From NCBI GenBank assembly GCA_900128585.1, contig LT642147.1, positions 1-64,000 on the forward strand: a DNA stretch of 64,000 nucleotides, read 5' to 3'. This DNA is from Stramenopiles sp. TOSAG23-3. Its lineage: Eukaryota > Sar. The position numbers and the translations under genes were made by a program. Positions within the stretch are counted from its first letter, which is position 1. Each line of letters begins with the position of its first letter. Positions 28,351-61,625 of this stretch are shown piece by piece. Under the pieces are notes generated by a model. It made no database searches. It was not told the origin of the DNA and worked only from the letters and a program-made list of their open reading frames with translations.

Positions 28351-31300
28351 CTAGAGATTCTGCCCCAGAAGCAACCCGGCTTCATCCTCAGTGTCCACGA
28401 TCTTGCTTTTACCAGAGGTACCAATAAACAGGTTCTTTCCAGCTGACTTGAGTAGAGAGTTTATAACATGCCACTGCAGCTCTTTCAAAAAATTCTGCCA
28501 CGTCAAAAGTGCAGCACTTTTGGAAAACGGGGAAACTTTCAATCTCCACGCGTTGAGATTAAGCCCTTTTGCAAACCCTTGTGCACTTACCTTGACCTGA
28601 ATTTCCCCAACTCGTGCCCGTTTAAAGTAGACAAACTGGTCTTTCGTGCCTTGCGCATCTTCCTCGTCGTCAGCTTCATTTTCATCATCGGAATTGCCTT
28701 CACTTTGGTCCTCTTCGGAGTCTTCCTCCCTCGACACCAGGGTCCCAAGCAATATTTCTTCCGCGCATAGCTCCGTCTCCTCTTCAAAGACGGCATTTGT
28801 CGCTTCTTCGCCAAAAAAAAACTGAGACAAGGCTTTGGCCACCGTGTCTGTCAATTGGACCGAGAGGAAATAATTGGTCCCAGGAAACAGCACGATCTCA
28901 ATACGATCGTATATACTCACTTCATTATTGCGGACATCTATCTGGGGCGATATGTGTGCACGAACTTCAATCAAGTTTTCAGTGGATTGCTTGCGATCTT
29001 CCAGTACGGAGCGCAGCACCATGCTCGAGTCCTCGAAGTGGATAGCGGCCAATGCACCAGGCTTCATGTCCACGATGCAAAGATTTGACACGTCAATTTT
29101 AACCTCAGTAGAAGTGTCCTCATAAAACAAATGTTCCCCGTGTACGCCTCTGATCCCTAAATCTATTGGTGGTCCGTCGTTCATGGACTGCAGCGTCCAG
29201 ACCAGCCCTTCCAACTCATAGGACAAGACAGACAACAAATTGGACTCCCCGTTTGCAGATTGCTGGTTTTCAAGTATATCTTCTACCTCGTCCACGGATA
29301 AAGCGTCCGTCGCAGCATCCTTTTCCTCATTAACTTCTGCATTTGCAGACGACGTTTTGTCGCCACCGCTGCTATTTGCCGCTTTCGGTGGTGCAAGCAG
29401 CACGTTTCGAACCACGTCTAGTATTTGATAAAACTCCGGAGATATTGTCTTCGCCTTTATGGTTTCAATTCGCAGGCGGACCCATGGCGCATAATTAGTG
29501 AATGATTGGTTTGCCAGTTGTATCTTTGGGGAAGACAATGCAAGCCGGTAAATATTTTGATCTTCACTCGATACAGCATTGGGCGCTAAGGCCCCAAGCA
29601 AGTCCCCTTCTATCGTATACGACGCTTTCTTTTCTATCGGCGTCTCCTTTGATTTCCCAGAAAGAGGGTCAGGCGAAGATTGACTTGGCGACTCCTGATT
29701 TTGGCCAAGCCATGGGTCCCGGCGCATTTCTACGTCGCCAGGGGCAACGTAAATTTCTACATTAGAGGTCTCAACGTACAGCTCGTCCATCCTCTCCTTG
29801 CCCATCAATGAACTCACTCCGTCTTCAAATTTATGGCGACCCGCCACTTCTACGCTGGGGGTCGAGAGCAACATCCCGGAGTGAGTAATGGTACTCAAAA
29901 AGTACACCTGAAGCTCGAACACCATCACTTTGTAATCATACGTAAAGTCGATGTCTTCCCACCATTTTGCTGCGACTTTGCTTCCTGCTCTACTCTTTCG
30001 TGCAACCGGGGACGGTCCCGCACTTTCAGAACTCTTGCGCCGGCGATGGAGGTTTGATGGACGGGGACCACCGAATTCCCGATGAACCGATCGTGGTGTA
30101 TTTGGCTCTGAGGTGTCATAGCTATCCTCCCTAGTCCGTCTCGTCTCTATTGAAAGAGCAGATGGCGAGTCGCTCTCTTCTTGGAATTGCCGCTTGGTCA
30201 ACAGATTTAGGAGCGACATCTCATCATGTTCAGGCTCCGTCGATAATGTTCGCTGGTGCAACATTCGATTCGTAAGCGGGGTTGACTGGGAGACCTCCAG
30301 GCGTTTTCCTTCCCCCAAAGCAAGGCCAGCATCTTCGGAGGAGGATACAGAAACCTTCTCCAAAATGGGCGATGTGGGGTCCGCATCGGCGCCACTTTCG
30401 CTGTGGCTCTCCGCAAGGCCGGTGGAGTTTCTACTGTCGCCTTGAGTACCACCATTGTTAAGGTGGTGCTCTTCCGTGACTTTTTCAAGCCCTGCGTCGT
30501 CATCGATATCACCTGGGGAGGTCCAGAGCAGATTGATCAGGTCCACAACAAGATCACGGGCGTCGACTGTCCAACGAAGGCGCCCACTTCTAATAGTTGT
30601 AATATTTGCGATATTCTCGTTGTGGTTCAAAGTCCAATACAAGGACTTTGAATCAAACACGGGTGGGTCAGTAATTGCATCGATGCGCCGGACACCAGTT
30701 GGGGTGAAGTATAGATGGGCACCCGTTAGGTCAACGTATACTTGGTTCATTTCCCCTGGCTCAAAAGAAGACATTTTATAACGCGCCGAATAAAATACCC
30801 GGAGAACGTCTGATGTTATAATCGCGTCTTGCTTTTCACCAATTGAGTCATCATCGATGGCCAAAAACACATTGCCCAGCTTCATGTCAAAACTGTAGCT
30901 CGACATGATGTACCCAATGGTAGGGATAGTTCTCGGGGGTGTTGTCCAATACGCTTCTAAAGGATCCATAAACGAATTGTAAACGTCTGTGAACCACGAA
31001 ATATGACGATGCCATTCGACCACAGCAGTCGCCGATTCCGCGCCCAAGAAAATGTCAATTTCCATTCCTTTGGCACGAAACGCGGCAAAAACATCCCTTA
31101 GTTGCTTTCCTTTCCTCAATACCTTTACCCTATGCTCATGGAGCTGCACGTAGTGGTCGAATCCCTCGGCGTCTGGGACGTGCCATACGTACCCTATGGC
31201 CAGCGCCAAGCTTTTCATCTCCACCAAGCATTGGCCAACGTCAGCTGCAGCACTGCTCGGTACAATCTTTTTCCTCTGGATGGAACCCTTTGCACTTTTG

Positions 31301-33996: not shown

Positions 33997-35343
33997 ATTG
34001 AGCAGCAGGGCCCTAAGAGTGTTCTCCCTCTTCGAAACTCAATACGTACCGCACGTGCTTGGCGTTGGTTTCGTGGAACAAGGAAGAGTAGTATGTTTAT
34101 AGATCATCTCTCCTAAAAAAATCTTTAATCGTGTAAAATGTTAGCTCTGATGAATTGTTTTCTTTCCAATAAAATGTCGACAGGTGGTTGGTTATAATAA
34201 TTTTCAAATTTTCTTTTCTCTTCCTTTCTTCTTTTTTTTGTATTTTAATAATATTAATAATATTTTATTATTATATTATTTTTTTATTCACACACCACCA
34301 CCATCATCTTTTTCTTCTTCTTCTGTCGTCTTCCTTCTTTTTTTCTTCTTTTCTTTCTTCTTCTTCTTCTTCTTCTTCTTCTCGGCTCGGTCGGACTGTG
34401 TGCATTAAAGCTTTAAGGAAGAAAGTAAACAAAAGAATAAATCCTACAATGATAATACTATATTTTGTATTATTCATACACCGTGTTCTTTCCTATAATT
34501 AATATAACAATTACATAGTAGACCTATTTGATTCTATTCTAAATATATTTAAGGGTTAATTTCCTTCCTTTATATCGATCTGTCATCTGTCATTTTGAAA
34601 CTACTTTTTTGGTTCATTCATTCATTCTTCTCGAAGCATTTATATTTATACTCTTCTTCTATTTTTTCCCTTCTATTTCCATATTAGTAATTAATTTAAA
34701 AAAAAAACGATTTTTTGAAAATTATACCAATGCTCTCTTCTAGTTATGGAATTAATAATAAAAGGGGAGGGTTTTTTTCAATAAAAATATTTTATTTTTT
34801 TAATTATGTTTACTATTCCTAAAAAAGGGATATTGATAATGATTCAATATGTATAGAACATTTATATTAAATAAATATAACATTATGATAATTATTAATT
34901 TTATAAATATTGTTAGATATATAATAATGACAAATTATTATTTTATTTTTGTATTGAAATGTCCACCATCCATCATCGAAGAGAACAATGAAAATAATAG
35001 TAATAATTATTTTTATTATTATTATTAACTTTTAATTTATAACGACCCTTCCTTCCCTGTGCTGCTGCTTCATCCCTCATCAAGTTTTCATTTTTTTTAT
35101 ATTATTTGCTTGCTTGCTTTTTTTTAACTTTTCTTTCTTCCATATAAGTAACTGAAGAGAGAAGCGTCGTGTGAAACGGTTCAATGGGAATAGATAGTTG
35201 GAATAAGAAATAGATAGTTGGAAAACGAAGTAGGAACGGACTAACGATTGCACATTCAAAAAGATACTGCACAAACGAATTAAAATTACACTTTGTAATA
35301 CACAACCGTTTGAATAAGTAAACACACAGAACAACGTAGCACT
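33997..35343. other. Long divergent spacer with pyrimidine tract
   Basis: A 1.3-kb AT-rich region between the lipid-transfer protein gene (minus) and the TBCB gene (plus). It contains TTC-rich stretches (34213-34239 and 34306-34382). No gene is visible; the minus-strand frame at 35080-35730 is an antisense shadow of the TBCB start region. Confidence 0.55.
34306..34382. repeat. TTC-rich pyrimidine tract
   Basis: A plus-strand pyrimidine-rich tract of TTC units with interruptions. It lies about 310 bp upstream of the lipid-transfer gene, where it is GAA on the sense strand, and about 960 bp upstream of TBCB. Confidence 0.85.
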
Positions 35344-41974: not shown

Positions 41975-43380
41975 GGTCTGGGTGGCAACCGGCTGTGTTA
42001 CAGAACATCCAACGCTGCCGTTCTAAACTCGCCAAACGAAGTGTGTAGTGTGTATTGTTCTAAGTTTATGTGGGTTTTAATTGTTTGAACAACAGTGGCG
42101 TGTGCGTTTAAGTGATCGTTTGTATTTATGGTGGTGGTTTATTATTATTAGATTATGCAGTAGTATATATAAGAAGAAGTAATGTAATATATTTGTTGAT
42201 GATTATTGAGAATTGAGAAGCATTGTTCTTCTAGTAGTAGTGCTATACCAAAAATAATTTTAAAAAAAAGAAGAGGAGAAGACTAATAAAAAATAATAAT
42301 TGATTTAATAGCTAGACTATACAGTGTAATAAGAAGAGAAGAAGAAGACAACATCCTTTTTTTTTCTTCTTCTTCTTCCTTTCTTATAAAAAGAAGGTAT
42401 AAAATAACAAAACATCTTCTTCTTTCTAAAAAAATAAAAAATAATAATTAAAAAATATCAATCCCACCACCGTGTAATAATATATATAAATAATAATAGC
42501 GAATCTATATAATAAAATAATAAAAGAAGAAAAGCAAATTAATTATATATATTATGCTATGGCTATATAATATAATAAAATAATAAAAGAGAAGAAGAAG
42601 AGAGAATTCAATAAATAAATAAAAAATAAAAGAGAAGAAGAAAAAAGAAGATGATGAACTACGAATAACTTATATTAGATTAAACTAAACGTAGTCATTT
42701 ATACTATTCTCCCTATTTAATTAATAGAATAGAAATTGTAATAATAGACATATGCTGTGTCTATTTAATATATATATATAGGTGCTACAATAGTATTAGA
42801 CTATGGAATAATAAATTGGAAGAATGAATATTTACTTTTTTTTAAACTTTTTTTTTTTTTTAATTTTTTTTTTTTCATCTCTTCTTTTTTTTTTTTGTTT
42901 CTTCTTCTTCTCCTCCTCTCTGTTGTGTGGTGTGGTGGTGATAAAAAAATAAAATATTATTATAATAATTTTTATTATTATTATTATTTTATTAAAAAAC
43001 ACAAAGTATCTTTTCAACCGATAGTATAAATTACGAAGATTGTACTTTTAAAAGAAACAAACAACAATATTGAATATCTTTTTACTATTTTCTCTTCTCT
43101 CAATGAATAAATAATAGTCATCTATGTGTGTGTACGTTGTACATTAAAAAGATACGGAAGAACTGTTCCATTGTTTCCTGGAGAAGGGCCAGGCGTATAC
43201 AACCTACCTACCGTACTACCCTCCCTGCCTACCCCCGTTACACGCGCCAACCACCGTTTGCTTTGCGTATCTTTCCTATACAATCGTCGAACCTTTTCTA
43301 GCCGATAGCGAACGCCAAGGGACGAGACCGCGGGCACGGGCGGGCGAGGGGGAAAGGGGGGGATAGTAGGACTAGGACAT
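41975..43380. other. Divergent promoter region, very AT-rich, with GAA and TTC runs
   Basis: A 1.4-kb spacer between the PhyH-like gene (minus) and the kinesin gene (plus). GAA-type runs lie near the minus gene (42172-42350) and TTC/poly-T runs near the plus gene (42837-42917), so each reads pyrimidine on the sense strand of its nearer gene. The final 240 bp become abruptly GC-richer toward the kinesin start. No other gene is seen. Confidence 0.55.
42837..42917. repeat. Poly-T / TTC tract
   Basis: Plus-strand homopolymeric T runs followed by TTC and TCC units. It lies about 465 bp upstream of the kinesin gene. Confidence 0.85.
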
Positions 43381-46092
43381 ATGGAGGCCGAGCTTCAGGC
43401 GGCCGTGCTGGAGCACGCAAAGTACCTCGGGCTGGACCCCGCCGTCGACGGCAAGTACATGCACTTGGCGAAAGAGGCCCTGTTGGCCCAGGTCCCGGCA
43501 CCGTGGGTCCAGTACGAGAGCGAGGAAGGCATCCCGTACTACTGCAACGAGGAAACCGGCGAATCCAGCTGGGAAAACCCCATGGACAACGTCTACTTTG
43601 AAAAGATAAGGGCGCTCAAGGAGCGGGACGGCGGGGTGCAGCCCCCGGCGAGCGCCCCCGTGGCCCCGCCCGCCGTGCCGCCCCCGGCGCTCCCGCTGCC
43701 GCCGCTGTCGCCGCCCGCGGCCGCCGCCCCCGACCCCGCGCCGGGGACGGGCAAAGCCGAGCCCAAGGCAGAGCCCGAAGGCGAGGACGACATAGAAAGT
43801 ATAGTGGGCAAGCGAGTCCTTGGGGGGGGCGTGGTCGAGTACAAAGTTCACTGGAGAGGGACCGGCCCGTCCGAGGACGAGTGGTTCGGCCGGGACGACC
43901 TGTTCGCGGAGTTCCCCCAGCACGTCCGCGATTACGAGGCCGCCCGCGACGCGCACGGGGCCTCGAAGCGCCGCCCCCCTCCCCCCCTCGCTGCCGCGTC
44001 CCCCGCCGGCAGCAACGCCGCCGCCGCCGCCGCCATGGAGTCCATGGAGCGCACGATCGACGAGCTGGAGGAGGAGGTGGTGCAGGCGAGGAAGCAGCTC
44101 ATGCGCGCCAAGGAAGAAGGGGACCGGGCGGCGCGCGGGAAGCGCCGGGCCGAGAGGGAGCTGAAGGACGTCTCGGACTCCTTGGAACGGCTGCGGGAAG
44201 AACTGGAGAGGGAGGCGGAAGAGAACGACGCCATGCGCTCGAACGTTCGCCGGATGGAGGCAGAGATCAAGCGGCACGAGCGGGCCTCGCAGGTGGCCTC
44301 GGGCGCCGGGCCGGGGCCCGCGGAGGCCGCGAACGCGGAGGAGGTGCTGGCCCTGCAGAAAGAGCTGAGCGGGGCACGGGGCGAGGTCAGCACGCTGAAA
44401 GCCGAGGGCGCCGCGGCCCGCAGGGAGGCCAGGGCGCTCCAAGAGGAGGCCTCGGCCCTGTCGGAGTCCCTCGAAAAGCGCAAGGCCGAGCTCGAGCAAG
44501 AGATGCACGCGTCCGCGGAGCTGCGGAAACGGCTCTTGGCCGCGGAGGCCACGGTCCCGGACGAGGGCAAGGGCCCGGACCCGGAGGCCGCGAAGGAGCT
44601 GGAAGAGCTTCGGGGCCGGTGCGAAGCGTCGGAGAACAGGATCAGCGACCTGAAGGGCGAGCGGCGCGCGCAGAAGGAGCAGCTTGGGGTGATGCGCAGC
44701 CTCCTTCTGCAAGCGCAGTCCGAGCTGAAGACCCGGGCCGCGGAGTCGGCCGAGCTCCAGGCGACGATCGAGACCGTCCGGGCGTCCGCCGCGGCCAACC
44801 TGGACCAGGCGGAGAAGGAGAAGGCCGCGGAGATCGAGCGGGTGGTGCAGGGCCGCCTCGCCGCGGCGCGGAGCGTCGCCGACGCGGAGATCGCCGCCGT
44901 CCGGGGACAGCTCGAAGCGGCCGAGGCGAAGCTGGTCGAGGAAATGACGAAGCGGCGGCGGCTGCACAACCGGGTCATGGAGCTGCAGGGCAACATACGC
45001 GTGTACTGCCGGGCCCGCCCGGTCAGCGCGACCGAGGAGGGGTTCGGGGACGAGAAGGCGGCCGTCGTGGTGCGCATGCCCGCGAACGACGACGGGTCCG
45101 TCCTGGTCCGCGCGTCCCTGGAGCAGCGAGAAATACGGTCCGACTTTGACTTTGACGCGGGGTTCTGGACCGGGTCGACGCAGGCGGGCGTGTTCGAACG
45201 GGTCCACCCGTTTGTGGTGAGCGCGATGGACGGGTACAACTGCTGCATATTCGCCTACGGCCAGACGGGGAGCGGGAAGACGTACACCATGGAGGGCCGG
45301 GCGGCCGACCGGGGCGTGAACGTGCGCGCGCTGGACGCCATGTTCGAGGAGGCCGGGAGCCGGGCGAAGAATTTGGGAATGCAGTACACGTTTGCGGTGA
45401 CCATGTGCGAAATATACCAGGAAGAGGTGTACGACCTTCTCCCGGAGACGAAGGTCGCCACGAGGACGAAGATCCAGCTTCGCCAAGGGAAGGGCGGGGC
45501 CGTGTACGCGGAGGGGCTGAACTCGGTCCCCGTCGCCACCACGGAAGACGTAGAACGCCTCGTCAAGCGCGGGCACAAGAACCGCTCCGTGGGGGCCCAC
45601 AACTTCAACGAGCACTCGTCCCGGTCCCACCTGGTGGTCGCCGTGGAGATACGGCGAGAAATCGTTCGGGACGACGGCCGAACGATGGTCCGGGTCTGCA
45701 CGCTCAACTTGGTCGATTTGGCGGGGAGCGAAAGGATCAGCAAGACCGACGCCAAGGGGGTGCGGCTGAAGGAGGCCCAGAGCATCAACAAAAGCCTGTC
45801 CGCGCTGGGCGACGTGATCGGGGCGCTGGGGGGCGCGAGCAAGCACGTCCCGTACCGGAACTCCAAGCTGACCTGGCTGCTGAGCGGGTCCCTCAGCGGC
45901 AACTCGAAAGTCCTGATGTTCGTGTGCATTTCGCCGACGAAAATGTGCGTGTCCGAGACCATGTGCTCGCTCAATTTTGCGCAGCGCTGCCGGTCGACCG
46001 AGCTCGGCCGGGCCAGCAAAGTTGGGGAGAGCTCGGGGGGGGGCGCGGGAGGCGCAAGGGGGCACCTGAGGCGCGGCAGCGGGAGGCGGTGA
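43381..46092 (+). CDS. Kinesin-14 with N-terminal WW domain and chromodomain
   Basis: 903 residues, intronless. A WW domain at about 40-65 (WVQYESEEGIPYYCN then SSWENP) is followed by a Pro/Ala linker. A chromodomain-like block at about 136-185 reads IESIVGKRVLGGGVVEYKVH, then WRGTGPSEDEWFGRDDL. An Ala/Glu-rich coiled coil runs from about 215 to 535. The C-terminal motor (about 538-880) has the P-loop GQTGSGKT near residue 627, switch I NEHSSRSH near 743 and switch II VDLAGSER near 780. A motor at the C-terminus after the neck motif GNIRVYCRARP marks a minus-end-directed kinesin-14. The WW and chromodomain would recruit Pro-rich partners and methylated histones, so a microtubule-chromatin link is inferred. 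The gene is strikingly GC-rich against its AT-rich neighbours, and its codons end mostly in G or C. Confidence 0.85.
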   Translation: MEAELQAAVLEHAKYLGLDPAVDGKYMHLAKEALLAQVPAPWVQYESEEGIPYYCNEETGESSWENPMDNVYFEKIRALKERDGGVQPPASAPVAPPAVPPPALPLPPLSPPAAAAPDPAPGTGKAEPKAEPEGEDDIESIVGKRVLGGGVVEYKVHWRGTGPSEDEWFGRDDLFAEFPQHVRDYEAARDAHGASKRRPPPPLAAASPAGSNAAAAAAMESMERTIDELEEEVVQARKQLMRAKEEGDRAARGKRRAERELKDVSDSLERLREELEREAEENDAMRSNVRRMEAEIKRHERASQVASGAGPGPAEAANAEEVLALQKELSGARGEVSTLKAEGAAARREARALQEEASALSESLEKRKAELEQEMHASAELRKRLLAAEATVPDEGKGPDPEAAKELEELRGRCEASENRISDLKGERRAQKEQLGVMRSLLLQAQSELKTRAAESAELQATIETVRASAAANLDQAEKEKAAEIERVVQGRLAAARSVADAEIAAVRGQLEAAEAKLVEEMTKRRRLHNRVMELQGNIRVYCRARPVSATEEGFGDEKAAVVVRMPANDDGSVLVRASLEQREIRSDFDFDAGFWTGSTQAGVFERVHPFVVSAMDGYNCCIFAYGQTGSGKTYTMEGRAADRGVNVRALDAMFEEAGSRAKNLGMQYTFAVTMCEIYQEEVYDLLPETKVATRTKIQLRQGKGGAVYAEGLNSVPVATTEDVERLVKRGHKNRSVGAHNFNEHSSRSHLVVAVEIRREIVRDDGRTMVRVCTLNLVDLAGSERISKTDAKGVRLKEAQSINKSLSALGDVIGALGGASKHVPYRNSKLTWLLSGSLSGNSKVLMFVCISPTKMCVSETMCSLNFAQRCRSTELGRASKVGESSGGGAGGARGHLRRGSGRR

Positions 46093-46730: not shown

Positions 46731-49700
46731 TTAAATCTGTTGGGTTTTTGGCTCGGGAGACGAGGGCAGCTGAAAGCTGGACGCCTTTGCCCCTGCGGAC
46801 GCTTTCACGGATTTCTTCTTCGTCTTCTTCTTCTGCCCGGCCGAGGACTTCTTCTGGCCCGCGCTTTTCGTCTTGGACTTCCTCGCCCCCTTCTTCTCCG
46901 GGCCCTTCTCCGCGTCTGGCCCGTCCCCGCCTTCCAGGTCCACCATGGCAATCTCTTTCTCCCCGTCGGATTTTTTGGCCGGCTTGGGCTTGCTGGCGAC
47001 CTTCTTCAACGCCAACTCCTTCGCCTCGATGCGGGCAAGCACCTCCGTCTGCTCCGTCTCCAGCTCCCCGATGCTCTCCTCGATGGAGTCCCCCTCGTCG
47101 CCTTCGTCCAGGGCCTTCTTCTTTTCCCGCAGCGCCTTCATTTCCGCGTCGATCTCCACCAAGCGCTCCACGTCCGGGTCGCTCGAGGCAAGCGGGCCCT
47201 TGTACACGGGGTCGTCGCCCTTCCTGCCCAGCATGAAGAACAACCCAAAGCACACCAGCCCGATCAAGATGACAATCGCGACGATGATCAGCCAGGTCAA
47301 GTCGAAGGCCCCGGTCCCGGCGGCGGCGGCGGCGTCGTCCGTGGCGGGCGACGGTTTGGGGGTGCACACGTCACCGGTATCGCAGTACGTGGCAACGCTG
47401 CCCATGGCGCTCCCGCAAAAGCACGCCTGCGAGGCTTCCTCGCCTTGGGTGCAGGGGCGGCGCTGCGGCACGGCTCCCCCGTTCGCGTCGTACTTGCACA
47501 CTTGCCCGGGTGCCAACAGGTCGGGGATGGCCGAGCTGGTGCCACACTTGCACGCCACGGAAACGATCACGTCTGCGGGGCAGTCCACAACGTTGGCAAG
47601 GCGAGCCACGGTGCTTTCGTCGCTGCTGGAAGTCCCAAAGCCCGGGACGAGGCACGTCTGCAGCGGCCCTTGGGCCACCTTGCACTTGAGACCCTGCTCG
47701 TTGCAGCAGGCGCACGGGAGCCCGGTCAACGCGTTGCCGTCGGTGGAGCACCGTCCCAGGGCCGTGTCTTTCAGGACCGTGTGCGCGCACACCTGCCCAC
47801 TGGCGATCATGGCACTCCCGCACCTGCAGGGGAGCGAGGCAACTGCAGACCCATCGCTGGAGCTGCATGGCGCGACTTCGGACGTGGCGCCGCCCGCGCA
47901 AGCCTGCCCTGCCTGGGCGATGGTGCATTGGGTGCCGTCCGTGTTGCAGCATGCGCACTCGGACGTTGTTACTGCTCCGTCGATGCACTTGGTAAGGGTG
48001 CCGTCGGTTTTGATGGAGTGGTAGCACACGCCGCCGGGCACAATCGTCTTTGCGCCGCACGTGCACGTGACTTTGGTAGCCGCCGTGCCGTCTTGGTTCG
48101 CGCAGTCCGTGAACGCGCTCACGGCCGCCGTTGACGCGCCCGTCAGGCACGTATCTGTCGTGGTGGCCAGTTTGCAGGCTCCCCCGTCGGTGCTGCAGCA
48201 GAAGCACTCTGCGGTCGGCCGGTTCCCGTCGGTGGTTGTGCACTTTGCAATCTTGTACGAGTCCTCGGCGTTTTTCAGGTTGCAAACGTCTCCGCTCACG
48301 GCGTTGGGCGCCGTGGGCACCCCGCACGTGCACGACTTCGTTGTGGCGCTGATGCCGTCCCTGGGGCTGCATGTGCTCAACAGGGACACGGCGCTGTTCA
48401 GGCACACCCTTCCCGATTCCGCTTGGTTGCACGCCTGCCAGGCGTTGCAGCACGCGCAAAACCCGGTGTTGACGCTGCCGTCGCTCTTCGCACACTTCGA
48501 CAGGACTTTCTTCGAGTACCGGTTGTGGATGCACAGATCCCCGCTCGCAATCGCCGGCGTTTTTCCGCCGCACTTGCAGGCTCGAGGGGCGGCGTGGTAC
48601 CCGTGCTGGAATCTTTCGTTGTTTTGCATGTCGATCTGAACGTCGTCGCAGTTTTGGACGTTGTCCACCCGGGAGGAACCGCCGACGAGCTTGTCCTCTC
48701 GGTCTGTGCCAGACTGACCAGTAAACCCGGTCCTCAACCCTGCATTTGCAGTATTGCACGCCCCGGTCGCTAACAATGCGTGCAACCGGAAAGTACTCCC
48801 TTCTGCGTTTATGTTTTGAACACAGTACGTTGTTCCATCGCGCAGCCCGTTGGGGATATTTGAAGATGCAAGGTGTGTATCAGCCTCGTTTCCGAGGGCG
48901 TAGGTCACATTTTGGCCATCGGAAAACCCGTGATTTTCGATGGTGAACGTGTCGCCGTTAAATGCTTTGAGAAAGTAGTACGTCAGCCCGCACGTCTGCC
49001 CGACCTTGGCGTAGTTGCACTGGCGAGGGTAGGTGCCTGCGACTGGGCAGCACGCTTGGGCCGTAGTGGCGACGATCCCCCCGCCCCCTGCGAATATGGT
49101 CATCGATTGCATCGCTTTCGTCTCGCACACCTCGCCCCTTCCCATCGGCGATCCCCTGGTAGTTGGCACGCCCGTGTTGAGGCAGTAGCACTCCGTGGCC
49201 GTCTGCCGGATGTTGTCCCCGGCGGTCTTGGGCGTGCTGGTTAGGAAACACTGCAAGCCCCCTTTCCATGCGTCAGTGGATGATATTGCAGTACTAGTGA
49301 ACAGCCCCCCAGCCGCGTTTGGCGAGGTAAGGGTGATTGGAGAGCCCGTGGAAGCAATAGCGTCTCGGTGCCAAAATGTCAATGTTCCTTTGGTCGGTGA
49401 AAGCTTTGCCTTGGCGTTGTTGTTCAAGACGAACGTGGACCCCGCCGACGTTGTGTACGCCAAGGTACCGGTGGGCGCCAAGGACTCCGTGACACTCATG
49501 TAAATGGGGTCTCCGTTAGCAATAGTAGTGTCTGTTGGAGTTCCCCTGGTTACCGTGACTGTAGTTGAACCACCAGTTGACGTAACTGTCATGATTTCGC
49601 TTTTGATTTTGATCAGTAAACGTAGTCCCAGTTCCCGAGAGCGTATTAGTAACGACTGTCGTCTTTGCAGTGGTGAGCAAAATAGGGTCGGTGTCGGCGT

Positions 49701-52700
49701 CAAGTATAGTTGCCGGAGAACTATGCCTCACAACCGTGACCTCGTCTGGGTCGCCACTATTATCAACTGAAGCAACTCTCATGATTTCGCCGTCGATTTG
49801 GATTACATCTCCTGCGCTGAACCTAGTTCCTTCGCCATCAGCGACATTAAACGTAGTCCCACTGGAGAGCGTACTCGAAACAACAGAAGCGAGCGCCACG
49901 GTAGCGATAGCCTCGTCTATCCTGGTCACCGCTAAGTTGTACGTCACTGCCGTGTTCGCTCGCGCGTTTGGTTGAAAGATATCGGGGGACGATTGCGTGT
50001 CCGTGCACACAATTGTCACTTCAGTGTTTGCGGCGATGGCGGTCATGGTGTTGCCGTTAGCATCCGTGCGCCCCGGAATTACCGTTAAAACTTTTCCTGT
50101 TGATCCTGAAACTGCAAATGTTGTTGAAGTCCCAAATACGGTCCCTCCTGCCGAGCTTGATTGACAGTACTGGGCGAGTGTGGTACTCGCATGGTCATCA
50201 CGAAACACTTGCGTGGCAAAGGTCGCCACAATAGAATCTTCGCCCACGGTGAATGGCCTTGCCGTTGTAAACGTAAGGGTAAGCTGCGTGGGGCGCAAGT
50301 GCTCCTTCAGGCTGCTCGTGCCCAGTTGCACCGTCGGTACCCCTGTCGTTTGGTATGCGAACGTTCCCATCGGGGAAAACACGGTGGCCTTGCTGGCAGT
50401 ATCCTGGTAATATGGTTTGCCAATGTTGGCAGTAGTCCCTGCGCGCGCACGGTACGTCACGACTGTGTTTGCCGCGGGGTTGGCGTTGTACATGGTAGCA
50501 GCTTCGCAAGCGATGGTGACGGTTGAATGTTTTGCGATTGCGCCGGCGGTGACTACTTCAAGCACCGATCCTTTCTGGTAGGCGTAAATGGGGTCTCCGG
50601 CAGCAATAGCGTCACTCGCGGTACTCCCCCTGGTTACCATTACTTGGTCTGCACTAGTAGAACTAGTACCATCAACCGCGTCAGTCGCTTGAACGACCGT
50701 CATGATTTCGCCGCGAATTTGGATGCGCATACCGGGTTGAAAAAGTGTTGCTTTGCCATTAGGAATGGAAAACGTAATATCAGTGGCAGCTGGGGTAAAA
50801 GCAGTTGTGACTGTGGTTAGCTGGGCCTGAAAGTAAATGGGGTCTCCGTTAGCAATAGTAGAGTCTTTTGGAGTTCCCCTGGTTACCGTGACTGTAGTTG
50901 AACCACCAGTTGACGTAACTGTCATGATTTCGCTTTTGATTTTGATACAGTAAACGAAGTCCCAGCTCCGGAGAGCGCATTAGTAACGACTGTCGTCTTT
51001 GCAGTGGTGAGGTAAATAGGGTCGGTGGCACCGGCGGCAAAACTTCCTGGCGTTGAATGCCGAGCTACCGCGACGGTTGTCACGGTACCATCTGACGTAA
51101 CTCTCATGAATTCGGTGCCGATTTTGATAACCCTACCTTCTGGGAAAAGCGCCACATCACCATTAGCAACATAGATCGAGGTCCCTGTATTACCACTGTC
51201 TGCGAAGTTATTACTGGCGGCCCCACCCCCATCCGCATTAGTTGTGGTTAGGGTAAAAAGCGCCACGGTAGCGATAGCCTCGTCTATCCGGTCCAACTTC
51301 ATCCCGCTCGACGTAAAGATGGACCCCGACGCAAAATTGGTGGTTCCACCAATTTTGCTGAGCGTGCTGCACCTGGTCGTTTCGACCTCCTCGTTCGCAA
51401 AGATCCCGTGGCTAAACTCGAACCGTATCCTGTCGTCCACGGCAAGTGCCGCCGGCGCAGTGAATTGCATCGTCAGCCTCGTCGGTTGCATTCTTTCGCC
51501 CGTCTTATCGATGCTTACGGTGGATAGTGCGGTGGACGTGAAGCCAGGCGTGGAAGGAGCGGACACGGCATAGTCAGCCCCTGCGTTGTTATCGGTATCG
51601 ATTCCAATCCCGAAAGTGAGCGAATTGTTAGCAGCAGGGTTCTTGGTGAATATGCCGTAGTGCTGGACCGTATCGCCGGAACTATGTGCGGCGAAGGCTC
51701 CAACTCCAAATAAGCTCGTCCTTGAAGCAACGGTCAATGTGTTGCCAGCCACGGTTGTGACCCGCATCACTTCATTGTTAATTCTGATGTATTTATTCAC
51801 AAGGCCGCTTCCCCCAAGGATACTAGCATCCGCTACTGGCACGGACACGTCCGTGGCGGCGTTGTTGTTGGCCACATTGGCCGTCAGGGTGGTAGTGGCG
51901 CTCCGGCGAAGATCGACGCAACGTATGAGGACTGTTGCGCCCTTGGCAATATTGTTCACCTTTGGCGTCACGGTCAAAACATTCCCGTTTCCGTTCACAC
52001 TGAAAATGGACGTGGCAGCCATCGTACTTCCTGCAGCCATGCTCTGTCTGCACATCGTGGAAATGTCGACAGTGGCGGTGGTATCGAATATTTTGCGAGA
52101 GAATGTGATGATTATGTCATGATTGGTGTGTGTTATTGCTTGAGGGGCTTTAAAGGTCACTTGCAAGTCCATCGGTGTCATTTCTTCCCTAGAATCATCA
52201 ATGGTAAGCTCGGACGCCGACAACGTCGTGTATGCTGGCATCGTCACGTCCCCAATTGCAGTCCCAGTTCCACCCGAAACAGTATCACCTGCTGCTCTTA
52301 ATTGGTATTTCACCAGGGTATTTGCCGCGGCATTCGGTTGGAAAATATTGCTTGACGCTCTGGTGTCCGTGCAAACAATCGTTACGTCAGAGTTCTTAGG
52401 AATGTCATCGGGAGTGGTCTTCGGAGTTATTGTCAATATTTGTCCCACACCAAAATTAGTAACCCCATTCCCAGTCACTTCAAACGTTGACGCGGCGTCA
52501 ATGGTGACCGTGCCCCCTGTCGCGGTTCTTATTGTGCTGCTTGCTTTACAGTACGTGTTGAGAACAGTATCGGCGTGGTCGAGGGAAAAAATTTTTGTGT
52601 TAAATTTTAGAACAATAGTGTGCGGGGCCGATTCATCGATAAGGGCCGGCGCGGTGAACGCAAGGGTCAGGGTTGTGGGGTTGAACCCCTCCCTCAATTC

Positions 52701-55700
52701 ATTCACTGTGACGGTCGACACCCGCGACACGTCGTACGTAGAAGGGTAGTTGGTGCTCGACGGGAGCCCGAGCGTGTAAGTCGGCAGCTTGGCAAAGTAC
52801 TGGTCTTTCGTGCCCATGTTGGCTTTGTCGAACTGGATGTTTGCACCACCAGTGTGGTACTTGCTAAGTTTGAACGTGTCAGCAGTTATCTCTTTCAAGT
52901 AGTACTTGCCAAGGTGTTCCAGCCCGCCGACTGGAGCACGGGACAGGGTGGTACCCGATGCCGACGTTTGCGTTTGCCCATCGTTTCCAGCATAGTATTG
53001 GACCACATCATTATTGTTATTGTTTGTCCAGCCATGACTTGCGCTGTAAAATATAACGTCGTTTGTCGGTATCACGGACGCCCCGACAGGCGGCGCGGTC
53101 GTTGGAAAACCCTCCGATGCGAGGTACGTCACGAGGCCCGCATTCGATTTCCCTGGTACAGTAGATGTAGAATCAGCAATGGTGTAAATTTTGTTTTCAA
53201 TTCGAACCTTTGAGCCGGCGCCGCCAATCTGGGAAGCGTCGGCAACTCTGAAAGCTTTGGTTGTTGCAGTCGGTGGAGGGACGACGACGGTGGTCCCTTT
53301 TCTGGGCAAAAACGTGACCCTCGAACCTAGAGCATGGTTGATTATCTCCTGCGTTCTCCCCGCAGTAATTCCATTTCTCACACACGTCAGGGCATTTGCA
53401 CTCACTGAAGTAACTAATATGATCTCAGATCCAATTTGAATGTATGCGTTCTTAGTGCTACTTGTAAAACCCAAAGCAGCCGCACTTTGGACATTGATGA
53501 CTCCATTTGAAGTACCCGACCCGCTGTTCGACCCGCCGCTGGCAGTTGTTACAGTCCCCACAATGGCAGGCTTCAAAGCCAATTCGGCCGGACGAAAATG
53601 CGTCGTCGGTGTCGTGTCGGTGCACACCATTTGAACCTTGGACCCTGCTGTCGACTGCTGGGAAGGGGTTGTAGTTAGCACAACGTTGGTAGAGACGACT
53701 GCTTTTACTTTCATGGCTGCCATGCTGTCGCACGTTTGAATCGGGGCAACACCGTTCCTATCTACGCCTAGGTTGTCGCACGTTTGCGTGTTCGACGCGA
53801 CAGTGCAGCTTGCTGCGGAGATTGGATTGCTCAACGGACTCCCCGCGGCATCGAACTGGTTTTGGCAGCACGCGCAATTCGCGGGGGTGGCAGAAGAAGA
53901 GGTAGTAGAACGGCTCTGGAGCCCCTTTCCGTCGCACTTTTCAAGTATATCGTTGTTGTAGCACACCTCGCCGGGCTTCAGGTCGGTCCCGATATTGGTT
54001 CGTGTCGTCGTACGCCCCGGGCACGTGCACTGCACGGCAGTGGTCGAGGTCCCCGTTATGGACGAGCAGGTCGTGAAATCGGCCACGTTGTACGCTGGCG
54101 ACACAAAATTGTCGCACGTCTGTGCGGTGGGCGAGCTTACGGCGAGCTTGCAGTTTCTCGGGTGGCCGCTGGTGGCCGTGGTCTTCTGGCAGCACGCGCA
54201 CGTTCCGCTGGTAACCTTCGCCCCGTCCCCGGCGCACTTGGCTATGAGCCCAGTCGCACCGCATACTTGGCCGGGCTGGATAGTGACACTTGTGGAGGTG
54301 CCTTGTACGGTGCACGTGCACGCGACTTCCGTCGTTTTCGTACCAATCGTGTTGACGCAGGCGGCCAGGTTCGCGGCCGTCCCAGGGTTCGTGCCCGTGC
54401 CGGTCGTTATGCACGTCTGGCCCGATTGTGCTATCGTGCAGAATGGAGAGTCGTAGTAGTTCGTGTCGGTAGAGCAGCACGCACACTTCGACGAAACCAC
54501 TTGCCCGCTCACGAACGTCCCGGCGTTGCACTTTTGCAGTCTCGTCGGCGTGGCTCCCACGGAGGCCGTGTGGCACACTTGGCCGGGAAGGAGCGTCGTG
54601 TCGCCGCACTTGCACTCGACCGGCGTCTCCTTCGACCCATCGACGGCCTCGCAAGTGGTGAACGCGTCCTTCTTTCCCTTGGTGGTGCACGTATCGTCCT
54701 TCGTCGCGGGCTGGCAGGCCGTCTTGTCCTTGTTGCAGCACGCGCAGTCCGTGTTCCACCGGCGTCCCGCGCCGTCCCACGAAGCCGGAGGGCCGGCCGT
54801 GTACCCGCAAGGGGGAAGCTTGGTGAGGTCGCCGTTGTCCAAGTTGCACACGGACCCCGAGGACACCTCCACGGTCCCGCACTGGCAATCTTTGGTCGAT
54901 TCTCTCTGTCCGTTGGTTGACTCGCACGCCGCGTAGTCCGACACCTGGCCGTTCAGGCACACCTGGCTGTTGCTCGTGAGTTCGCAGACCTGTCCGCTCG
55001 CATCGCAGCAGCTGCAGCCTTTCCCCTCGGGGCCACGCTCTCCGTTTCCGGCGCACTTGGCTATGCTGAAGACTTGCTGCGCGGGGGTCAAATTGCAGAC
55101 TTGGCCCGCGTTGATCTGCTTGGGCCCGCACTGGCAGGCGCTGGTCTCCTTCTGTACGCCGGCGGTATCGGCGCACGCGTTCACCGATTGGCTCGACGGG
55201 GTATTCGCCGGGCTATCGGTGCTGGCACTGACCACGCACGTCCTCCCTGCCAGAACGTCCGTGCACACCCCCGCGGTGCTGCTTGAAAGGTCCGAACAGC
55301 ACGCGCAAAACTGCGTTGCAACCGACCCTGCGGTGCATCGCGGAAGGTTCGTGTTGGAGCGACGACGATGGTTGCAGACCTCGCCCGGACCGATTTCAAG
55401 GGTTCCGCACAAGCACGATTTCGTGGTCCGTTGCTGCCCGTTTTCGCTGCCGCACGTAGCAATGGTGGACACTGGCGTTGATGACGTCGTGATGTCCGAT
55501 GCGAGGGTGTTGACGCCAGTTACGTAGCAGATTTGCCCCACCTGCGCTACGGCGCACTGGTTGGCCTGGGAGGCAGTGCTGGGCAGGCAGCAGGCGCACC
55601 TTTCCGACGTCCTGGTACCGTCGGGGCTCCCGCGGACTCCGTTCGCATTCTTGCACTCCGGGTATACCGTTCCCGATATGCACACGTCGCCCGGGGATAT

Positions 55701-58700
55701 CCCGGTCGCACCGCACGAGCAGGCAACTGCGGCCTTGTGAGGGGTGGAAGCGCACGCCGCGTACGGGGCTGTCTGGCCATTGTTTCGGCACGTCATCAGG
55801 TTTTGGGCAAAGTTGCAGGCACCTGTGGAAGCGGCGCAAACGCCGTTGACAAGCGCAGAATCACAAGCGCAGCACGCACAAGTCCCCTGGACTTGTTTCC
55901 CACCGCCGTTACCGGGCATGTTCCCGCAAACGAACTGCACCTCGTTGTTTATGCATACCCTCCCAGACGTCATTTCCACGCCGTTGCATGTGCACGCGCG
56001 TAGCTGCACAGCAGTCAAAGAGCACGAAGCAGAGGCTAAGGTCGGAGTATTGTGCTGGGTCCCCGATTCTGAGGTAAGACACGTTTCGCCCGGTTTCAGC
56101 GCGCGGCAGAGCCCGTTGTTTCGAGTTTGGCAGCACGCACACCTGTGGGTGACTTTCTTGCCCCCCTCGACACACTTTTCAAGCTTCTGCGTGTCGCCAT
56201 CTACAGTCGCGCACACGCTTCCGGGGTTGATGATCGAAATCCCGCATTGGCAGGCTGTGAAAGTGAGGACATTGTACGGTTAGTGTGTGGAGTGTTGGGA
56301 GGCATTTGGGCAATGATAAAAAAAATACTTACCCTCCGTGACCTTTCTACCAGGTAGCCAATTGGCTGAATTGGAATCCAACCCAGTGATTTCTATCCGA
56401 TCGCGTGGATTTGTTGTACCAGATGGGCATGCGGCAACTGTTTTTTTAATCAACACAGTACCAGATGCTTCGGCGCTGGTACAGACATCCCCGGGCACGG
56501 CGATCCTGCACAACAGTCTGTCTCTTCCGCCTGAGACTGCAGCGTTTAGACTCGTCGCCAAAATGCCAGGTAGCTCGCAGCAAGCGCAAGCCTTGTTTTC
56601 CACCTTCTTCCCCTTCCCCCACCCCGGGTAGTGCTGGCAGATGTCGATGATTTTGTTCGGGTCGTTGTCGTGGTTGCACACTTGCCCCGCTTTGATCAAT
56701 GTGTTCCCGCAATTGCAATCCACCGCCGCCCGGCCCGTTCCGTCCGTGACAACGCACGTTGTCACTGCTGCTACCGCCGGGGTCCCGGACGCGCTAAACG
56801 TACACGTCTTTGTGCTGTCGGCGTACGAGCAGGTCGTCCCGCCGTCCCTGCAGCACGCGCACCCTTCGGGCGGCGCCTGGGCCCCCGTGAGCCACAAGTA
56901 CGGGTGGGCCCCGGCGGTGGCTGAGGATGTTGCTCGACAGTCCGTCAGACTCCCCTTGTTGCTCGTGACGTCCACAAGCGTGCTCCCTGCCGTCGCTTGG
57001 TTGTAGCATCGCCCTTTGCATTGATCAAGGACCAAGTACCCCAATTGGTTGTTGTAGTTGCACACTTGGCCCGGGACCAGGGCAACGTCTCCGCACAAAC
57101 ACTGCACTTTGGTGGCCGCGGTACCCACCATGTTAAGGCACTGGGCCAACGGCGTTACGACCCCGTCGCGGCACATCTGAAGGTTGGTTGCGAGCGTGCA
57201 CGCGCCCGTGCCGGCCTTGCAGCAGCTGCATTGTTCGGTCGAGCTCATAACGGTTGGTTGGCCGTTTGGGGCCTGCTTGAATCCCCTGTACCCTTGGCCA
57301 AAGCAGTGCTCCACTGTTTGCGATGCGGTCATCGAGTTGCAGTACTCCCCGGGCTGAAGCGGTACCCCGCCGCAAAGGCAGGCGATCATGGAGGGCGACG
57401 CCCCGTTGGTTATGCCGCACACTCCGTAATCGGCCACGGCGCCGCTACTTGCGCAAGTTTGTCCCTTAGAAGCCACTTTGCAGGTCCTAGTGGCGGCGTT
57501 GCAGCACGCCTGGTGTGGTGTTGGGTCGGTGAAGTGTTAGGCGAAGCGAACGAAAAATGGGGTGAAGAAGAGAGAAGTTGAAGAAAACTTACGCATTTGC
57601 TTGTCGTCTGCAGGCCGGCGCCGTAGCATATGTTTATCGGTTTGTTCGGCGTCAGGCCGTCGTAGCAGACTTCGCCGGCAGATATTGTTGTCGCCGTGCC
57701 GCAGAGGCACGGGACGGCGGTCGCCTTTGTCCCGTCGGAGGCCTCGCACGCTGCAAGAGGGACGGCTGTCCCCTCCACGTTGCACGTGTCTCCCGCGTTC
57801 GCGACCATGCACACGCCGGATACGGAGCAGCACGCGCACTTGGCGGAGACTGCCCCTGTGGTGCTGACCGCGCACTGTTGGATGGCCTTGTCCGGCCAGA
57901 CGGAGTGGTAGCATATTTTCCCTGCTTTCATCGGCAAAGTGCCGCACTTGCAGTCGACGGTCGAAATCTTCGTCCCAGTCGTGTCCTGGCAGACTCCGTA
58001 AGTCGCCTTGGAACCGCTGCTTAGGCATGTATCGTCGTTGGAGGCTACCGCGCAGGCCGTCCCTTGAGGGTTGCAACATGCACAGCGGGCACTAGTCTTT
58101 GCCCCGCCCCCTTGGCACTCCGACAGGACCTTGTTCGGATTGTTGCCGTTGTCGCAGATGTCCCCGGTGTTTATCGCCAGCTGCCCGCACATGCAATCCC
58201 TGGTGGTCTTGGAAGTGCCGGAAGAGCTCGCGCAGTTCCCGTACGCCTGCAGTTTCGAATTGCTATTCAGCATTGGCAAACAGGTCTGGGCGTCGGTACT
58301 AGAACTGGAACTAGTGGAAATCTCGCACGGCTGCCCCCCTGTCCACGTGTTTCCACCACTCTCGCATTCTGCGCGGGTCGTCTTGGATGGGTCCGAGCAC
58401 GCGGGGGCGCAGCAAGCGCATCTGGCAGTGATTCGTTTCCCCCCTCCCGCGCACTTTGACATTTTCTTCGGGGCCACCTCGGTAGGTGGTCCGGAGTTAT
58501 AGTTTTCCACGTAGCAGACATCGTCAACGGAGATGCTCACGGGAGATCCCGAGGCAGGGTTTGCCGCCGCGCACTGGCACTCGATCGTAGACATGGGGCC
58601 CGAGACCTGGGGGCAGGCCACAGTCTTGATCCGTTTGTAGTTGTACGCGTACACGTTGGTCCCCGGGGAGGCCGTTTCACAGGTCTCCCCGGCCGCGGTG

Positions 58701-59540
58701 GTGGCACAGTCGTTGCCATCACTAAGGCAACAGGCGCAACGGCTCGACTCTGCCAGTCCGTAACGGGTGCACTTGGCAATTCTGCTGTTTGGCGAGTAGT
58801 CGTGGTTGCAGACTTCGCCCGGTGCGATTTCGGTGGTTCCACACAGGCACGAAACGGTGGTCTGCGCAGAAGCCATGGTGTTGACGCAGGCAGTCAGCGC
58901 AGTGACGGTGCCATCGTTACTGCAAACCTGATTTCGCTTTGCAGGCGTGCAGGATCCGCTTCCAGAGGACGGGCAGCACTACAAGTCGAGGAAGGGAGAC
59001 GATCGATCGTGTTAGTCGCGGAGCAGAGGGGGAGAGAAAGACAACGTTGATCGGGAGTACTTACGGTACAGTCCTGGGAGGCTTTTTTGCCCCCGCCCGC
59101 GCACGGCTTGAGGACTATATCGCTCAGCTGGCAGACCTCGCCAATGCCAACGATTGAATCGGCGCACCGGCCTAAGTAGAAGAAAGGGTAATTTTGTTGT
59201 CGCGAAGGGACGATGAAAATTGTTAGCACAAGGGCAAAAGGTTGGTCGGCAAAAGAAGGGTGCGAGGGGCGGGCGGCTGGCTCTACTTACAGGGCTGCGA
59301 AGCGGCGCGCGTGCCGTCCACGTTCGTGCAGGCGCTGGGGTCCAAGCACATGGTCGCGGATGCAACGGCAAGGGCCCGTTCTTTATGTTCCATTTTTGCC
59401 AGAAAATCCACCCCACGGAGTTGCCGGAAACTGTGGGGGTACGCTGGCGACCTTTGCAGGCCGTGGAGCTGCTGCGCCTTCTGCGCGCTAGCGCACACGA
59501 GAAGGGCGCACGCCAGCAGCGTGCGCAGCGTTTGGGACAT
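46731..59540 (-). CDS. Giant cysteine-rich type I membrane protein (C-x-C-C repeats), five exons
   Basis: Exons: 59540-59291, 59171-59065, 58978-57593, 57509-56333 and 56254-46731, about 4,150 residues if two frame breaks are bridged. A signal peptide (LLACALLVCASAQ) starts it. At least 18 modules of about 60-75 residues follow, each reading roughly C-x-C-G ... G-x-V-C ... C-A-C-C ... T-C ... C. Then come about 1,100 residues of beta-rich repeats of two kinds, one more degenerate and four clear C-x-C-C modules, one membrane helix (WLIIVAIVILIGLVCFGLFF) and a cytosolic tail of about 155 residues with a short coiled coil and a Lys-rich end. It is probably a cell-surface or cell-cover adhesin; partner unknown. 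Frame changes near 50945 and 49615 cancel each other. If real, the first would end the protein after about 2,750 residues without its anchor. Confidence 0.8.
49500..51030 (-). repeat. About 1.33-kb tandem duplication inside the giant gene
   Basis: A stretch of roughly 195 bp at 49501-49695 recurs nearly identically at 50834-51030, about 1,333 bp apart. The flanking beta-rich modules correspond at protein level (RIDEAIATVAL ... DPI(Y/L)LTTAKTTVVTN). The junction copies are far more alike than the rest of the units, which points to recent duplication or gene conversion. Confidence 0.75.
56255..56332 (-). other. Intron 4 of the giant gene
   Basis: A 78-bp phase-1 intron with donor GGAGG|GTAAGT and acceptor TTTCACAG|CCTGCC. 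Removal restores the regular C-x-C-G start of the next module (EACQCGISII). Confidence 0.88.
57510..57592 (-). other. Intron 3 of the giant gene
   Basis: An 83-bp phase-0 intron with donor AAATGC|GTAAGT and acceptor CACACCAG|GCGTGC. Removal restores SKC-ACC, a regular C-A-C-C core. Confidence 0.88.
58979..59064 (-). other. Intron 2 of the giant gene
   Basis: An 86-bp phase-0 intron with donor GTACC|GTAAGT and acceptor TTGTAG|TGCTGCCC. Removal restores the C-T-C-C core of the first module. Confidence 0.85.
59172..59290 (-). other. Intron 1 of the giant gene
   Basis: A 119-bp phase-1 intron with minus-strand donor CCCT|GTAAGT and acceptor CTTAG|GCCGG. Removal restores the module reading SQPC-RCADSIVGIGEVC. 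Confidence 0.85.
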
Positions 59541-61625
59541 TGGTCTTTGTCTTGCTTTGTTGTTCTTTCTTTTGCAGTATTGTTTGAATAGTGCAAATTA
59601 TGCAAATTTAGTGTGCAGTCGGCAGGATTTGCTCTTTAAAATAACGCGCCGTTTCATTCACGAAAGTAACAGCGTGGGAACGCAGCAACATCATGGTTGC
59701 GGAAGCTGCCCAAAAAGCTCGGCTTACGTGCAGCATATCATCGGTACCGGGCACTTTGTTGTTGTTCTTCTTCTTTGTGAGCAGCTGCTGGTGCCGGCAC
59801 AATAAAAAAATAATTAAACCACCACCATCCTGTTGTCCTGCTATCGGTAGTTTACTCGTTGGTTCTACTTCCATATCTATAGCTCCTGTTCTGTGGGTGT
59901 TGTTTGGGTGGTGAGTGGGCGGCGTGAGCTCGAGAAAGTTTCCTGTTACAGGCGCATAGGCAGAACATTAACGTGTAAAAAGATTATCCAAAACCGACGG
60001 ACCGCAACAACAAAAAGATCGAAATTTTGGATTCGAGAACCATTATTTTGTACCTTAACATGGAGAAGCAACCGGGAGAGCTCTTCTGAGAATATAGTAA
60101 TTGTAAATAAACTAGACGAGCGACGACACCAATGTATCATTAAGGATAATTGTTCAAATAGGAGAGAATCACTGGACGAACCATTTCGAACGGATTAAAA
60201 AAAACTCAGCAGAGACTCCTCTCCCTCCCCTTTCCTATTTTCTTGCAGTTTTAGTTTTCTTCAATGGTATGGAAGCAGCAGCCGGGACAACTCCTCGCTT
60301 GGGTTCCGAGAGATTTGACATATTTCCCAACACTGTTCCGATGTATATAACCAACTGGTTCGTTTGGGTTCGAAGGTTCAAAAGTTTGGTTTTGCAGAAG
60401 TATACACAGTTGCATAGTTGTCTTGCGATGCCCCCCTATGGAGCAAAAATCGACGAAAATTTTGCCAGTCATTTGTTTTTTTTTTGTGGAGAGGAAACGC
60501 ACGCAAAAGAAAGGATGATTCTGCTTCGAGCTTCGAGGAACAATAATAAGTAGGAGGAACACTGAACAAAACGCTTGCCGGTAAACTTACACGCCACTTC
60601 TTTGATTCTTTTGATGCATAAGAAGAAATACCGTCCCCTCACCATTAAATTGTTTTTCTGATTAGTCTAACATTAACATGGAAGGGGGAATCGTATATAG
60701 TTTATTTACTCCGGAGACCACGCACAGCAATGGTGTAATTTACAAAGACATAACAGCTGCGCTAGAGTCCATATCACAATAGTATACATTGAACAGTATG
60801 GGATATATAGATAGGTTACAGAATGGCACTTTTACCTGCCAAAAAGTGGTGTTATTTTTTAAATAAATAAAAAACATTGAAGTAAGAAATAATTGTATAC
60901 TCGATGACATAATCGTCCTATAATATAATTAAATTTGAATTATTCTATAGTCTGTCTACCTTTTATGAAACAAAGCAGTACACAAGTTGAATAATTATTC
61001 AGACAAACAACATAGAGGAAGGAGGGCAGAGAGAGAGAGAGCAGGATACCATTTGTTTTTAGAGGTCCTTAATATAAATTAATATGTCACTATAATATGT
61101 ACGACGTAAGGGAAATAGGTCTTCTCTAATACCCTACTTTCTGTAATCCTCACCTTCACCTATCTAAAGACAATGACATTATGTATTAATAAAGAAAGAG
61201 AAAACCTTAAAATCAAAATAAAGAAGAAGAAGAATTGTACAATGGTGTGATACCGTATCTCTCAACAACAAAAAAATCCGCGAAGAAGAAGAAGAAGAAG
61301 AAGAAAGAAGAAGAAGAAAGAAGAAGAAGAAGAAAGAAGAAGAAAGAAGAAGAAGAAAGAAAGAAGAAGTTTAAGTTTAAGTTTATATAGTATTAATAAT
61401 TAAAATCAGGAAGTGGTGTGTGTGCAACCTTCATGCAATGTTCTTCTCTATTTTTTGGGTACCCATATATAATTTTGTTCGATAGGATACTACTCGGCAG
61501 CCCTATCCGTGTTCGTCTGACATCATCATCGGCGATTTTGTTTGTTGTGGGGGCTTCGTATTTTCTTTCCACGATTGATTAAAAAAGAAAAGAACGAGGG
61601 CAGAACTATTCGATACAAGCTGGCC
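59541..61625. other. Long divergent spacer, about 2 kb
   Basis: Lies between the giant gene (minus) and the GST gene (plus). It is mostly AT-rich with a purine microsatellite at 61281-61370. Small open frames (for example 60269-60553) show no domain or coding bias. No RNA gene was recognised. Confidence 0.5.
61281..61370. repeat. GAA/GAAA microsatellite
   Basis: A plus-strand purine tract of about 90 bp made of AAG and AAAG units, about 255 bp upstream of the GST start. Confidence 0.93.

Follow-up and report, generated by a model that had tools for sequence, protein, structure and literature searches.

What does the minus strand of contig LT642147.1 from Stramenopiles sp. TOSAG23-3 (GenBank assembly GCA_900128585.1) encode between positions 46731 and 59540? 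The window analyzed here comprises the first 64,000 nucleotides (nt) of this contig. A first-pass annotation, made from the sequence alone, had proposed that five exons spell one giant protein of about 4,150 residues at this place, possibly a new class of disulfide-rich adhesin or cell-cover protein. Our results point to a gene built around repeated modules with the signature CxCC, two of which appear to be interrupted by beta-rich inserts with likeness to tail proteins of marine phages.

The gene, as read directly from the sequence, starts with a codon at 59540 and ends with a stop at 46731-46733. Its five coding segments are separated by four introns, which measure 119, 86, 83, and 78 nt and share a GTAAGT donor (6/6 bases), a CTAAC element, and an AG end. 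Exon 1 (59291..59540) is followed by intron 1 (59172..59290; GTAAGT...CTAAC...TTAG), exon 2 (59065..59171), intron 2 (58979..59064), exon 3 (57593..58978), intron 3 (57510..57592), exon 4 (56333..57509), intron 4 (56255..56332), and the last segment (46731..56254); exons 3 and 4 carry CxCC modules. Splicing restores module motifs, such as a CTCC motif that is rebuilt across intron 2. The last segment consists of three open frames, N (to ∼50949), M (50946-49615), and C (49613-46731), and is interrupted at ∼50947 (residue 2742) and ∼49614 (residue 3186). M lies two bases out of frame with N, and C is one base off M and thus back in the frame of N. On the joined exons, the N frame comprises 2742 residues up to the first break and 2750 up to its own stop at 50922. 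End to end, N, M (444 residues), and C (960 residues) amount to 4146 residues, a length that holds only if both breaks are bridged. The five segments and the four strong introns therefore agree with the first-pass annotation, but a single protein is not confirmed, since the fifth segment is broken twice. The sequence is nevertheless coding, because M is open over 487 codons, with 20 and 25 stops in the two alternative frames, and C over 998, with 33 and 6 stops, because CxCC motifs exceed their frequency in shuffled sequences, and because two orthologue fragments exist (see below for both). No paralogue or second allele was found in the assembly, where matches at E ≤ 1e-3 were confined to this gene.

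The joined pieces contain 260 cysteines and 22 CxCC motifs, compared to a mean of 1.03 and a maximum of 5 in 1000 shuffles, in line with the at least 22 modules of C-A-C-C type counted initially. The module consensus is CxCC-x6-C-x8-C-x11-C-x12-CxCG-x6-GxxC-x12-C with variable loops, and when the sequence is divided at each CxCC, 17 of the 22 resulting stretches have all ten cysteines. Among 28 stretches listed for a profile of 14 modules, 23 matched at an independent E value (i-E) ≤ 2.7e-5, self-matches included. The modules form a first array at residues 118-1826 (53697..59070, introns included), the last module of which is cut after its first half, and a second array at residues 3572-3942 (47346..48458) with four modules and a weak half. 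The start codon opens a hydrophobic N terminus, MSQTLRTLLACALLVCASAQ (residues 1-20; 59481..59540), that by eye resembles a signal peptide. Toward the other end, a single strong hydropathy segment at residues 3961-3979 (47235..47291; mean hydropathy 3.27, compared to 1.52 for the next best window) is the predicted membrane helix, followed by a Lys-rich, presumably cytoplasmic tail of 166 residues (residues 3981-4146; 46734..47231). All three features had been noted before and are found again here. This anatomy fits a surface protein that would be disulfide-rich and membrane-anchored; to that extent the class proposed in the first-pass annotation stands, while its adhesin or cell-cover role is something that we, too, can only infer.

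Is the module a known one? Pfam and NCBIfam scans covered everything downstream of exons 1 and 2, that is, exons 3 and 4 and the N, M, and C frames, and no family exceeded its curated cut-off, so that the module did not turn out to belong to a known Pfam family. The best family below threshold was EFP_N in the M piece (18.6 bits vs. a cut-off of 23, E 0.0019), and for the N frame neither library listed a family at E ≤ 1. When exon 3 and the M piece were used as single-sequence queries against proteins, nothing scored at E ≤ 1e-3 (7993 and 7991 candidates scored). A profile of five four-module segments, the kind of search suggested in the first-pass annotation, retrieved four relatives at E ≤ 0.01 (7989 candidates scored), none of them with a Pfam family above cut-off; the protein searches scored only candidates sharing most words, and relatives may have been missed. 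Two relatives are the orthologue fragments P0001 and P0002, which share 92% and 55% identity with exon 4 and keep the module pattern. P0001 continues past the exon into intron 4 and stops at the same point as the frame in the window; it therefore looks like a frame read from genomic DNA, either of this species or of a sister species. It differs from exon 4 at 30 of 398 aligned positions, which are unevenly spread, with 13 in the first 40 residues and 0-4 in each later block of 38-40; gene conversion between modules or alleles is a possible cause of this crowding.

The other two relatives, P0003 and P0004 (656 and 626 residues, near-identical), come from a source labeled "merc", presumably the marine eukaryotic reference catalogue (MERC). 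A catalogue of that name is mentioned in PMC10864179. Both proteins have a signal-peptide-like start (by eye) and consist of ∼43-residue tandem units, C..(T)DGT......CxCG...G..C, which resemble the second half of the module; in contrast to the protein studied here, they have neither the CxCC half nor the beta block described below nor, by eye, an evident membrane helix. When profiles were compared, C6-C10, the second half of the module, aligned with the P0003 repeat of 43 residues (hhalign probability 94.1, P 1.3e-7), whereas the first, CxCC half did not match it (P 0.067). Homology of the two module halves to each other, tempting by eye, was not supported (P 0.061 and 0.029). The module, which had not been recognized at first sight, thus still falls into no Pfam or NCBIfam family, but its second half has kin in the MERC repeat, and two orthologue fragments are now at hand. 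The titles and abstract starts that we examined hold no description of the protein, which does not prove that it is unpublished.

Structure prediction, also suggested at the outset, was run on a pair of modules aligned to sister modules only. The best AlphaFold2 model is all beta without helices (predicted local distance difference test, pLDDT, 80.8; predicted template modeling score 0.61) and had no match in PDB or BFVD at E ≤ 1e-3. The top Foldseek row was 4-1BB, E 3.5, which is not a significant structural match; it is a protein with TNF-receptor Cys-rich domains, and these are elongated Cys-rich modules.

Between the two arrays lies a beta block of ∼1,490 residues (residues ∼1827-3318; 49218..53696), delimited by profile and composition. 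It seems to sit inside a module: the fragment before it (residues 1767-1826) corresponds to profile positions 1-43 (i-E 0.029 in the whole protein, 5.7e-5 alone), and a complementary fragment after it (residues 3319-3359; 49095..49217) to positions 36-69 (0.18 and 3.3e-4), both matches being weak in the whole protein. The next module is likewise split, with positions 2-21 at residues 3373-3395 (i-E 0.024 in the whole, 6.6e-5 alone), positions 34-78 at residues 3522-3568 (1.5e-7 in the whole), and a domain that we refer to as HGF-type between the two parts (domain 2, residues ∼3396-3480; 48732..48986). As judged by these profile matches, two beta inserts each interrupt one CxCC module, an arrangement that is new here. 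The beta block itself contains HGF-type domain 1 (residues ∼2035-2125; 52800..53072), long beta repeats 1 (52284..52721), 2 (51861..52220), 3 (truncated; 51252..51524), and 4 (49912..50337), and short beta repeats s1 (53310..53513), s2 (51660..51863), s3 (51003..51191), s5 (50584..50796), and s6 (49672..49866), in addition to s4 and s7, each interrupted by one frame break. The four long repeats described initially are thus present, with two further partial ones by eye, while the approximately eight short ones amount to seven that align and an eighth seen by eye.

The inserts also differ from the arrays in base composition. GC content at fourfold sites is 0.737 for residues 1-1800, 0.563 for residues 1811-3300, and 0.816 for residues 3301-4146, making the Cys arrays the GC-rich part of the gene. 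The best-fitting low-GC block spans residues 1737-3311 (0.56 vs. 0.77 outside), with its left edge ∼90 residues before the module split, and improves the log-likelihood by 52, compared to at most 27 in 100 block shuffles on a coarser grid. HGF-type domain 2 has a value of 0.60 (60 sites) between flanks of 0.80 and 0.83. The 13 other frames in the window range from 0.48 to 0.94, and therefore the inserts are not foreign by composition. One gene with two histories would be a modest reading of these data.

Where might such inserts come from? Short repeat s2 matched the tail fibre family phrog_11439 at E 5.5e-05 and was the only one of six pieces below 1e-3; s1 hit the same family at E 0.047, and the other four pieces gave nothing under 0.02. 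In a tblastn search of 50,697 phage records, s2 retrieved 10 records (E 4e-3 to 0.5) that belong to six phages, each infecting picocyanobacteria or Pelagibacter. The label is tail sheath in six records, tail fibre and structural protein in one each, and hypothetical in the other two. The M piece (425/444 residues) gave four records from three Synechococcus phages, with a best E of 0.03. A profile of five short repeats, omitting s4 and s7 because of their frame breaks, scored 23.1-33.0 bits for the best domain in each of six phage proteins, which had been chosen because tblastn found them, and detected a second copy in both sheaths; the best control scores were 6.5 bits among 300 shuffles and 1.2 among six reversed sequences. 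The proteins in question are sheath or fibre proteins of the cyanophages P-TIM40, S-SZBM1, S-WAM1, S-SKS1, and Sf-CH8 and a hypothetical protein of pelagiphage HTVC027P, which have in common a ∼60-residue domain with the motif order I.I..EI(M/L).(V/I)......TV.RG. The match is above chance, and by profile similarity the short beta repeat has recognizable relatives in tail sheath and fibre proteins of marine cyanophages. Unlike the phage domains, those described here lie within Cys modules of an intron-bearing gene of eukaryotic type, and the similarity of single sequences is remote, as the tblastn values indicate. The profile of the short beta domain (A1) had no sequence match in PDB.

A weaker likeness concerns the HGF-type domains. 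With domain 1, tblastn yielded three cyanophage records (two phages, E 0.4-0.5), of which two carry the label baseplate wedge, and the baseplate wedge proteins of cyanophages MED4-213 and B23 share the motif GGL.....YY....I....(F/I).L around this domain. None of 2000 shuffles reached the score of domain 1 alone against one phage stretch (29 aligned residues); for domain 2 alone 40 of 2000 did, which is not convincing, and for the two copies compared with each other 2 of 2000. A profile of both copies scored 18.6 and 12.7 bits on the two phage stretches, compared to 6.7 for the best of 1000 shuffles, but these stretches had been picked via domain 1 and are no independent proof. The HGF-type domain may thus weakly resemble cyanophage baseplate proteins. 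Single-sequence searches of the phage records found no match for HGF-type domain 2, long beta repeat 1, or P0003, and such searches confirmed no relative in plasmids (M piece, 425/444 residues), viral contigs, or prokaryote genomes. Transfer in either direction or convergence could account for the likeness between phage and eukaryote.

Taken together, the sequence suggests one gene for a membrane-anchored giant adhesin or glycocalyx protein, a reading to which we assign an even chance. The following observations weigh against it. The last segment contains two frame breaks, over which 132 and 108 formal candidates for frame-keeping introns (30-500 nt) can be drawn, none with a donor above 4/6 bases; bridging introns were therefore rejected, as no donor resembles those of the four real introns. 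No relatives cover the frames after the breaks, since the orthologue fragments are limited to exon 4 and the protein search with the M piece was empty. No ligand-binding family exceeded its cut-off, structure prediction gave a poor model for the long and short beta repeats (pLDDT 59), and for the module pair only two models out of five are good (the second with 77.8, the other three 42-47). Finally, a cell-cover or hair protein would share nearly the same anatomy.

Both breaks fall into copies of a near-identical duplicate of ∼195 bases (95% identity), the first within s4 (50833..51027) and the second within s7 (49500..49693), at matching places but by different amounts, and in both copies the short repeat is also shortened just ahead of the I.I..EI motif. 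Twelve dynein heavy-chain matches in this genome allow a comparison with other long genes. Six of them lie in unbroken frames of 3840-4616 residues, and therefore the assembly is not generally indel-rich; the remaining six frames comprise 619-3355 residues, which introns or contig ends could explain as well. The breaks may be sequence or assembly faults local to the duplicate or else true lesions of this allele, and both must be explained before the gene can be called intact. If they are real in the cell, the gene would be decaying and its product would end after residue 2750, to be secreted unanchored or degraded. Such decay would be in keeping with breaks that shift the frame by different amounts at a shared position in the duplicate, with the unbroken dynein frames, and with the missing support from relatives downstream. 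Nevertheless we consider it unlikely: the downstream frames are fully open over 487 and 998 codons against the stop-rich alternatives given above, their module cysteines are intact, and a near-identical duplicate is the likeliest place for assembly faults. The breaks might also separate two or three genes, for instance one for a secreted Cys-rich protein and one for a downstream membrane protein, and the composition shifts at residues ∼1737 and 3311 could be taken in the same sense. Yet these shifts do not coincide with the breaks at residues 2742 and 3186, the M and C pieces begin without a signal-peptide start (by eye), and the module halves flanking the beta block complement each other, which makes separate genes the least probable of the explanations considered here.

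How would a single giant protein of this kind work? The signal peptide would route it into the secretory pathway, and 22-24 modules of ∼80-120 residues each, presumably tied by disulfides, would build an elongated stalk, with the two beta-rich inserts forming a more globular binding part. The C-terminal helix would anchor this single-pass protein in the membrane, and the Lys-rich tail may contact the cytoskeleton or acidic lipids. The 12 dynein heavy-chain matches imply cilia, and no chlorophyll-binding family was found in the assembly, which may be incomplete; the owner of the gene is thus probably a flagellate and not photosynthetic. A search for one conserved rRNA pattern gave no match. An adhesin or glycocalyx role in gliding, attachment, or prey contact would recall Chlamydomonas FMG-1B, which according to PMC7759384 has 4389 residues, 4340 of them outside, and one helix, and functions in surface contact and gliding. 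Compared by plan and not by sequence, both proteins exceed 4,000 residues (here if the breaks are bridged), are mostly extracellular by prediction, and have one membrane helix and a cytoplasmic tail in a flagellated cell; the cytoplasmic part of FMG-1B is called short in PMC7759384, while the tail here would comprise 166 residues.

The same anatomy could belong to a structural cell cover (lorica, scale, flagellar hair, or theca) that is held in the membrane only during assembly and in which Cys cross-links stiffen the material without any specific ligand. The very high Cys content and the repeated modules agree with this, as do P0003 and P0004, which by eye have the signal-like start, the tandem units, and the missing membrane helix of a secreted matrix protein. 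The predicted membrane helix, the 166-residue charged tail, and the beta inserts, which suggest a head, do not. Moreover, cell covers are often built of several parts, and the assembly contains no paralogue. We therefore regard a cell cover as the chief alternative, possible but doubtful. In a more specific version of the adhesin reading, a phagotrophic flagellate would hold cyanobacteria or other bacteria as prey by means of captured cyanophage tail domains (sheath, fibre, and perhaps baseplate) presented on a disulfide stalk, in the manner in which phages employ them; this seems very unlikely to us at present.

Elsewhere in the assembly, contig C26 contains a further Cys-rich frame; it runs for at least 1,108 residues without ending at either side of the locus and has repeats that we take to be of GCC2/GCC3 type. 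A match of a long beta repeat to this contig (E 0.03) has a stop within the matching frame, while the other, 1,108-codon frame is open there, and was taken as chance. In the window, the neighboring frame at 43372-46089 on the plus strand encodes a kinesin with a C-terminal motor preceded by WW and chromo domains, all three above their Pfam cut-offs. Among the 13 frames measured outside the gene, it has the highest fourfold-site GC (0.94), and it offers no hint on the function of the giant protein. Further long intact frames are located at 14158-15894 (plus strand), by eye presumably a sphingosine-phosphate lyase, and at 28354-34038 (minus strand), which we likewise take by eye to be a very long lipid-transfer-like protein. 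Long tracts of TTC or GAA type occur at 13735-13924, 17290-17451, and 61282-61369.

At the molecular level, little is settled on how marine heterotrophic flagellates recognize and keep hold of prey or surfaces. A giant surface protein that combines an undescribed Cys module with phage-tail-type inserts would be a concrete and testable candidate for such recognition. The split modules suggest a route by which a protein of this kind may grow, with domains entering within a module while the Cys scaffold stays. If the link to the phages is one of descent, tail domains would have moved between marine phages and the surface of a protist, or both would share a marine pool of beta domains.

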